From Chloroflexota bacterium (lineage in GTDB: Bacteria > Chloroflexota > Dehalococcoidia > Lucifugimonadales > UBA3495): a stretch of 64,000 nt of DNA. The notes beneath the pieces were generated by a model. The model was not told the origin of the DNA. It did no database searches and worked only from the letters and a program-made list of their open reading frames with translations. Shown piece by piece: positions 4,561 through 59,715 of this stretch. The position numbers and the translations under genes were made by a program. Numbering within the stretch: position 1 is the first letter of the stretch; every line of letters begins with the position of its first letter. The stretch lies in contig VXOG01000028.1 in the NCBI GenBank assembly GCA_009840165.1, positions 91,937 through 155,936 of the forward strand, written 5' to 3'.

Positions 4561-4586
4561 TCATTCCCGCGAAAGCGGGAATCCAG
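4561..4586. repeat. REP-like TCATTCCCGCGAAAGCGGGAATCCAG
   Basis: Related copies at 18164-18190, 21489-21512 (inverted), 44979-45004. Confidence 0.85.
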
Positions 4587-56203: not shown

Positions 56204-56237
56204 CTAGTTCTTGCCCCACCGCCCAGCGGACACAAAA

Positions 56238-56257
56238 GCCCCGGCATATGCCGGGGC
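56238..56257. terminator. Palindromic terminator between Uma2 copy 2 and tRNA-fMet
   Basis: GCCCCGGCATATGCCGGGGC with CTTTTATCTTTT downstream and AAAA upstream, usable in both directions. Confidence 0.7.
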
Positions 56258-56271
56258 CGACTTTTATCTTT

Positions 56272-56346
56272 TGGTAGCGGGGGTTGGACTCGAACCAACG
56301 ACCTTCGGGTTATGAGCCCGACGAGCTGCCACTGCTCCACCCCGCA
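56272..56346 (-). tRNA. Initiator tRNA-Met (anticodon CAT), CCA encoded
   Basis: TGCGGGGTGGAGCAGTGGCAGCTCGTCGGGCTCATAACCCGAAGGTCGTTGGTTCGAGTCCAACCCCCGCTACCA: unpaired 1:72, A11:U24, three G-C pairs flanking the anticodon loop. Confidence 0.95.
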
Positions 56347-56354
56347 TTGTTGTT

Positions 56355-56405
56355 GAGGGTTACGAACCCGATCCGCTTCTGGCGGACCACTGCTCCACCC
56401 CGCAT
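56355..56405 (-). pseudogene. Truncated tRNA-like sequence sharing the fMet 5' half
   Basis: 19 nt identity (ATGCGGGGTGGAGCAGTGG) to the fMet 5' region, then inserted hairpin TCCGC-CAGAA-GCGGA, then TCGGGTTCGTAACCC anticodon-arm-like sequence; no T arm or acceptor 3' strand. Confidence 0.6.
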
Positions 56406-56487
56406 CGTCCGTAGGAAGAAACTGAAATAGGAAGTTTGAACCGTTTTGTCGAGAACCGAGCCAGAAGAATTAGAAGCTCCTGGCGTG

Positions 56488-59553
<3,066 letters not shown>

Positions 59554-59715
59554 CACGCTAGGAACTTCAAATTCTCTAGACTCGGTTCTTTTATGCAGTT
59601 CAAACTTCCTATTCAGTTTTTAACGTGCTCTAACCGTTCGTGGCCTGCCCGACTCGTTCGCCGGTGGCGCTGCCGCATCCGTAGAAGGCGACTTCCGTTC
59701 AGTTGGCGGAAATGG

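Follow-up and report, generated by a model that had tools for sequence, protein, structure and literature searches.

What is the truncated, tRNA-like sequence that lies beside the initiator tRNA gene of this Dehalococcoidia-type Chloroflexota bacterium: a structured RNA with a role of its own, a mimic of tRNA, or the remains of a duplication? In the window, by which we mean the whole 64,000-nt stretch of contig VXOG01000028.1 that was analysed, the minus strand carries in order a 23S rRNA gene, a spacer, a 58-nt partial copy of tRNA-fMet and the intact tRNA-fMet gene (Table 1). We consider, with a probability of roughly three in four, that the partial copy is a repeat-driven pseudogene, made by a palindrome-associated, template-switch-like tandem duplication that was followed by expansion and contraction.

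The 19-mer ATGCGGGGTGGAGCAGTGG has exactly two occurrences on the minus strand, spaced 58 nt apart, and a search of the window that tolerated as many as 3 mismatches gave no third match (chance expectation 0.01). The original prediction had described this duplication, and it was also right that the upstream copy is followed by TCCGCCAGAAGCGGA, by TCGGGTTCGTAACCC with CGT in place of CAT and by TCAACAACA, and that the unit stops with neither a T arm nor a 3' acceptor before running into the real tRNA. Of the two copies, ARAGORN and Rfam recognise the downstream one alone as a tRNA. The unit does not present the acceptor, D, anticodon and T arms of a functional tRNA; it has no RF00005 or ARAGORN match, and no tRNA-model match even at E<=10. 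The intact gene is apparently the sole initiator in this genome, for which 49 tRNAs were found, and no other of them has such a copy upstream (17/17 identity; next best 13/17). Judged by eye, the tail TCAACAACA is possibly a diverged copy of the upstream flank of the tRNA itself, the likeness being weak. The 23S rRNA gene is surrounded by an inverted repeat (79%; window 56419-56495 and 59546-59619) that is likely a 23S processing stem. Across window positions 1-64000, 5S and 16S rRNA were not found by Rfam at gathering thresholds, and it is tRNA-fMet that comes after 23S.

Table 1. Features of the 23S rRNA to tRNA-fMet locus in window coordinates
Feature	Position	Strand	Remarks
23S rRNA	56486..59553	-	Precedes the unit; a common transcript is presumed
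Truncated tRNA-fMet-like unit, 58 nt, one copy	56348..56405	-	Transcript order 56405 to 56348
19-nt exact copy of tRNA-fMet 5' end and flanking bases	56387..56405	-	Acceptor 5' strand, D-stem 5' strand, D-loop GTGG
Palindromic module TCCGCCAGAAGCGGA	56372..56386	-	One substitution from the dispersed palindrome TCCGCC-NNN-GGCGGA
Anticodon-arm remnant TCGGGTTCGTAACCC, anticodon CGT	56357..56371	-	In the unit fold pairs with the 5' tRNA strand (GAGC:GTTC, GGG:CCC)
Tail TCAACAACA, junction of unit and real tRNA	56348..56356	-	Compared by eye
Direct repeat of 19 nt, second copy, at tRNA-fMet start	56329..56347	-	
Intact tRNA-fMet (CAT)	56272..56346	-	ARAGORN and Rfam
Terminator-like hairpin GCCCCGGCATATGCCGGGGC, then TTTTG, after the tRNA	56232..56257	-	Read from the sequence

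In the inserted "D-arm hairpin" we recognise a copy of the host's own dispersed palindrome, a point that the original prediction had missed. With the reversed pattern as control (counts given as pattern/control), TCCGCC-NNN-GGCGGA occurs 38/6 times in the window's genome (G000), 65/1 in G005, 202/9 in G008 and 47/4 in G090, all of which carry the unit. The other two carriers, G224 and G048, have TCCCGAT-N3/4-ATCGGGA (84/0 and 49/0); G090 has both types (41/0 for the TCCCGAT type), and G000, G005, G009 and G002 have no TCCCGAT-type copies. In all six carriers a palindrome dispersed in that genome, or a decayed form of it, stands between GTGG and TCGGG; the window's module has one arm substitution and is one base off TCCGCCAGAGGCGGA. 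Carriers have the top palindrome counts in their comparison sets, and within the genus, ranks 1-3 of 14 all fall to the three carriers (p=0.0027), the TCCGCC-type counts in the eleven non-carrier congeners being 6-31.

The palindrome loops are freely variable, and copies are nested in other repeats, for example GTCATTGCGAG...GGCAATCTC and GTAGGGGCGAA...TTCGCCCCTAC. Other dispersed palindromes stand at window positions 4564, 18167, 21492 and 44982, such as ATTCCCGCGAAAGCGGGAAT and ATTCCGGCGAAAGCCGGAAT. In the congener G011 (L125:1113-1540), TCCGCC-NNN-GGCGGA forms the end of RNase P RNA stem P3, and its flanks GG...TCGGG resemble those of the tRNA units; GG...TC flanks common to the tRNA units and RNase P P3 were present in 10/59 sampled modules, mostly tRNA units. 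That the modules sit at the apex of longer palindromes did not hold as a general claim (TCCGCC flank stem mean 3.9 vs 3.7, not significant); the difference for TCCCGAT modules (5.6 vs 3.6) is only suggestive. Movement of the palindromes by a RAYT gained no support: a search for the Y1 transposase (PF01797) found none in 11/12 genomes, including five of the six carriers. The single match, in G224, was weak, and control genomes matched as expected. No constant GTAG or CGTC tag was noticed on reading the palindrome contexts inspected.

Pattern searches across the order covered 250 and 247 genomes. Units were found in 6/250 genomes, spread over three families, and 244/250 had none in a pattern search whose exact matching misses decayed units. 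Copy numbers, which may be mis-assembled in arrays as many genomes are metagenome-assembled, are one in G000, two in tandem in its congener G005, four with a 63-nt period in G224 of the same family, and one each in G048 and G090 from two other families. The most distal of the G224 units is decayed, and that array likewise comes after 23S. A third member of the genus, G008, has one decayed and truncated unit, which the exact tandem pattern missed and a GGTCC pattern recovered; an extra match to the latter pattern, in G094, is coding-like and not a unit.

The order of 23S and then tRNA-fMet is kept in most relatives, and the unit is absent from most of the aligned loci. The closest relative, G009, has an exact 58-nt empty site within an otherwise near-identical spacer, and together with the 19-nt exact direct repeats this matches a tandem-duplication tRNA pseudogene. 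The GTGG-module-TCGGG junctions are identical across three families. Copy and hairpin co-occur in every carrier found, and the pattern search of the order gave no truncated copy without the palindrome. The tails of G000 and G005 are dissimilar, though the adjoining spacers align well. What the loci show is an unstable tandem unit and no conserved RNA gene. Of the interpretations first offered, a decayed duplication fits these observations, namely absence from the nearest relatives, the empty site, copy numbers of 0, 1, 2 and 4, and decay. A maturation element and a tRNA-mimic decoy gained no support, given that anticodons are mutated (CGT, CAC), that several units have a broken anticodon stem and that so many genomes have no unit.

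Most intact units fold as one extended hairpin with outer GGG/CCC and GAGC/GCTC pairing and the palindrome at the tip. The fold is possible because tRNA-fMet has an imperfect inverted repeat in its 5' half, GGGGTGGAGC...GGCTCATAACCC, and the end of this repeat also explains the break of the unit after ACCC; a hairpin-free fMet copy in Lachnospiraceae stops at the same AACCC. Intact units are more stable than dinucleotide shuffles (z -1.6 to -4.6), and the decayed unit G224a has z 0. Of the pair cells, 94.9% were formed, and covariation was 0.224 vs 0.116 in shuffles. The covariation check that the original prediction had proposed thus yields a signal above shuffles, but the positive is misleading here because the hairpin belongs to the palindromic repeats dispersed in the host genome. 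The double changes concern just two pairs, which differ between the two palindrome types, and the apparent covariation therefore reflects the palindrome type used, by exchange of one for the other, and not base-by-base selection.

Several changes in the anticodon part preserve pairing within the unit via G-U (GTTC, GCTT) and spoil the anticodon arm, the numbers being small. Template switching between short inverted repeats has been described to cause arm homogenisation and spacer inversion, and such homogenisation can occur without selection (PMC8604942). In eight units, the 5' 17 nt had 1 change in 136 positions vs 13 in 120 for the anticodon part, with a p value of 0.0004 that is optimistic since the units are related. 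The lower 5' divergence fits homogenisation by slippage or, less likely, constraint.

The proposed origin begins with a genome that carries a dispersed short palindrome of the form TCC-stem-loop-stem-GGA. At the single tRNA-fMet gene, a palindrome-associated template switch or duplication would copy about -13 to +41 in tandem, and in the copy the stretch between GTGG and TCGGG would be swapped for the palindrome, the essential tRNA downstream being spared. Direct repeats of 17-19 nt would then allow exact loss or multiplication, by recombination or slippage, and the units would drift into decay. The event would probably have recurred independently and not been passed on by descent, and the products would probably lack function. 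This origin is favoured by the coincidence of the unit end with the end of the fMet inverted repeat and by the match between palindrome type and host. Counting against it are the better folding of intact units than of shuffles, the weak tail/flank likeness, and the failure of the Y1 search in 12 genomes to find an enzyme that moves the palindromes. The higher 5' conservation of the units could stem from constraint as well as from homogenisation. The identical junctions in three families would be surprising if the units were independent, and could reflect shared ancestry or a site-specific mechanism.

Shared ancestry deserves the most serious hearing among the alternatives, although we think it clearly less probable than recurrence, which is the only part of the preferred explanation that it contests. 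One early palindrome duplication would have descended vertically and mostly been lost by direct-repeat recombination, the palindrome later being swapped for the host-abundant type; the common junctions and the ease of exact loss agree with this. It needs, however, long retention of a deletion-prone array together with repeated palindrome swaps, and it sits poorly with the dissimilar G000 and G005 tails beside well-aligned spacers and with unit presence that tracks palindrome abundance. We rate as unlikely a bolder proposal, that the initiator tRNA gene offers, in its 5' half, a preferred landing or amplification site for a class of TCC...GGA palindromes without a known transposase. These would insert into loops of structured sequences or take their place (in REP-like repeats, in RNase P RNA P3 and in a tRNA half), so that composite units arise repeatedly, multiply in place and possibly tune tRNA-fMet folding.

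A structured regulatory or maturation RNA seems improbable to us. Under this reading selection would keep the hairpin between 23S and the tRNA as a processing signal, or the unit's 5' half would adjust the supply of tRNA-fMet by competing with the 5' half of the real tRNA for its 3' acceptor. The position in the presumed transcript, the extended hairpin with its well-formed pairs and the covariation above shuffles speak for it, as does the modelled capture of the real 3' acceptor by the unit's GCGGGG strand (P 0.86 in G000, 0.80 in G224), which makes an effect on folding of the real tRNA possible in these two genomes. Capture is inconsistent, however (0.02 in G048 and G090, 0.16 in G005), and the folding of unmodified tRNA sequences is unreliable. 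The rarity of the unit in the order, a covariation that comes down to two pairs between palindrome types, both of them plentiful at other places in their own genomes, and a G224 array that keeps a decayed unit alongside intact units and a normal tRNA also weigh against it. It is very improbable that an element once integrated at the 5' end of the tRNA left the repeats behind as the remnant of its attachment site: tRNA sequence is indeed repeated on both sides of inserted DNA, but only 39 nt lie between the repeats, tandem arrays of four exist and the palindrome is otherwise explained. Least credible of all is a decoy for tRNA enzymes; it would account for the exact 5' tRNA sequence, but the acceptor has no pairing partner inside the unit, the T arm and any tRNA model match are missing, and the anticodon is mutated, with its stem broken in G224 units. 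The composite looks like repeat-driven genomic debris and not like a tRNA mimic.

The repeat-driven pseudogene reading gives these loci a wider interest. They are natural instances of a rearrangement associated with a palindrome, and the essential RNA gene at which it occurs, apparently present in a single copy, is always spared. They also call for care in the search for RNA genes, since palindromes specific to a host can pass for covariation in an RNA. Should the palindromes spread with no Y1 transposase, these loci would allow the way in which they do so to be tested.

A scan of about 85,000 species returned real cases in Chloroflexota, Lachnospiraceae, Gemmatimonadetes and Magnetospirillum. 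Two Lachnospiraceae MAGs with the same sequence (L049, L064) have a truncated tRNA-fMet copy without a hairpin upstream of the intact gene; it ends after AACCC and its tail resembles the upstream flank. In a Gemmatimonadetes contig (L085), a truncated fMet 5' copy is followed by a different hairpin, AGGCGGCCAAGGCCGCCT, upstream of an intact tRNA-fMet, and in the one Magnetospirillum case the tRNA runs off the contig end. Most genome contig matches were coding-like or low-complexity repeats and not tRNA units. None of the viral contig matches (12 to the tandem pattern, 9 to the GGTCC pattern) was a tRNA unit; they were repeats, coding-like, or one recurring sequence without a tRNA. No account of tandem repeats made from a truncated initiator tRNA in bacteria turned up in searches of the literature.

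Several known systems share part of this picture. REP/REPIN elements with their RAYTs are likewise host-specific, many-copy palindromes, and ordered tandem clusters of them are known (PMC3733652, PMC3116915); here, in contrast, no Y1 (RAYT) transposase was found in 11 of the 12 genomes searched. The repetitive hairpin elements of sponge mitochondria show recurrent invasion and a scattered distribution among relatives, but in organelle genomes and with unrelated sequences (PMC2800124). Rickettsia palindromic elements are short dispersed palindromes in or beside genes, one of them in the rpmE-tRNA-fMet spacer of Rickettsia, and their size varies between species; in the cited passages they exceed the present palindromes in length (25-102 bp reported, mppA-purC spacer) and differ from them in sequence, with no partial tRNA duplication seen there (PMC1950309). 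In tandem-duplication tRNA pseudogenes, too, a partial copy stands beside an intact tRNA, as seen independently in Lachnospiraceae, Gemmatimonadetes and Magnetospirillum. The Chloroflexota cases differ in that they always swap the 3' half of the D-arm for a host palindrome and can form arrays.
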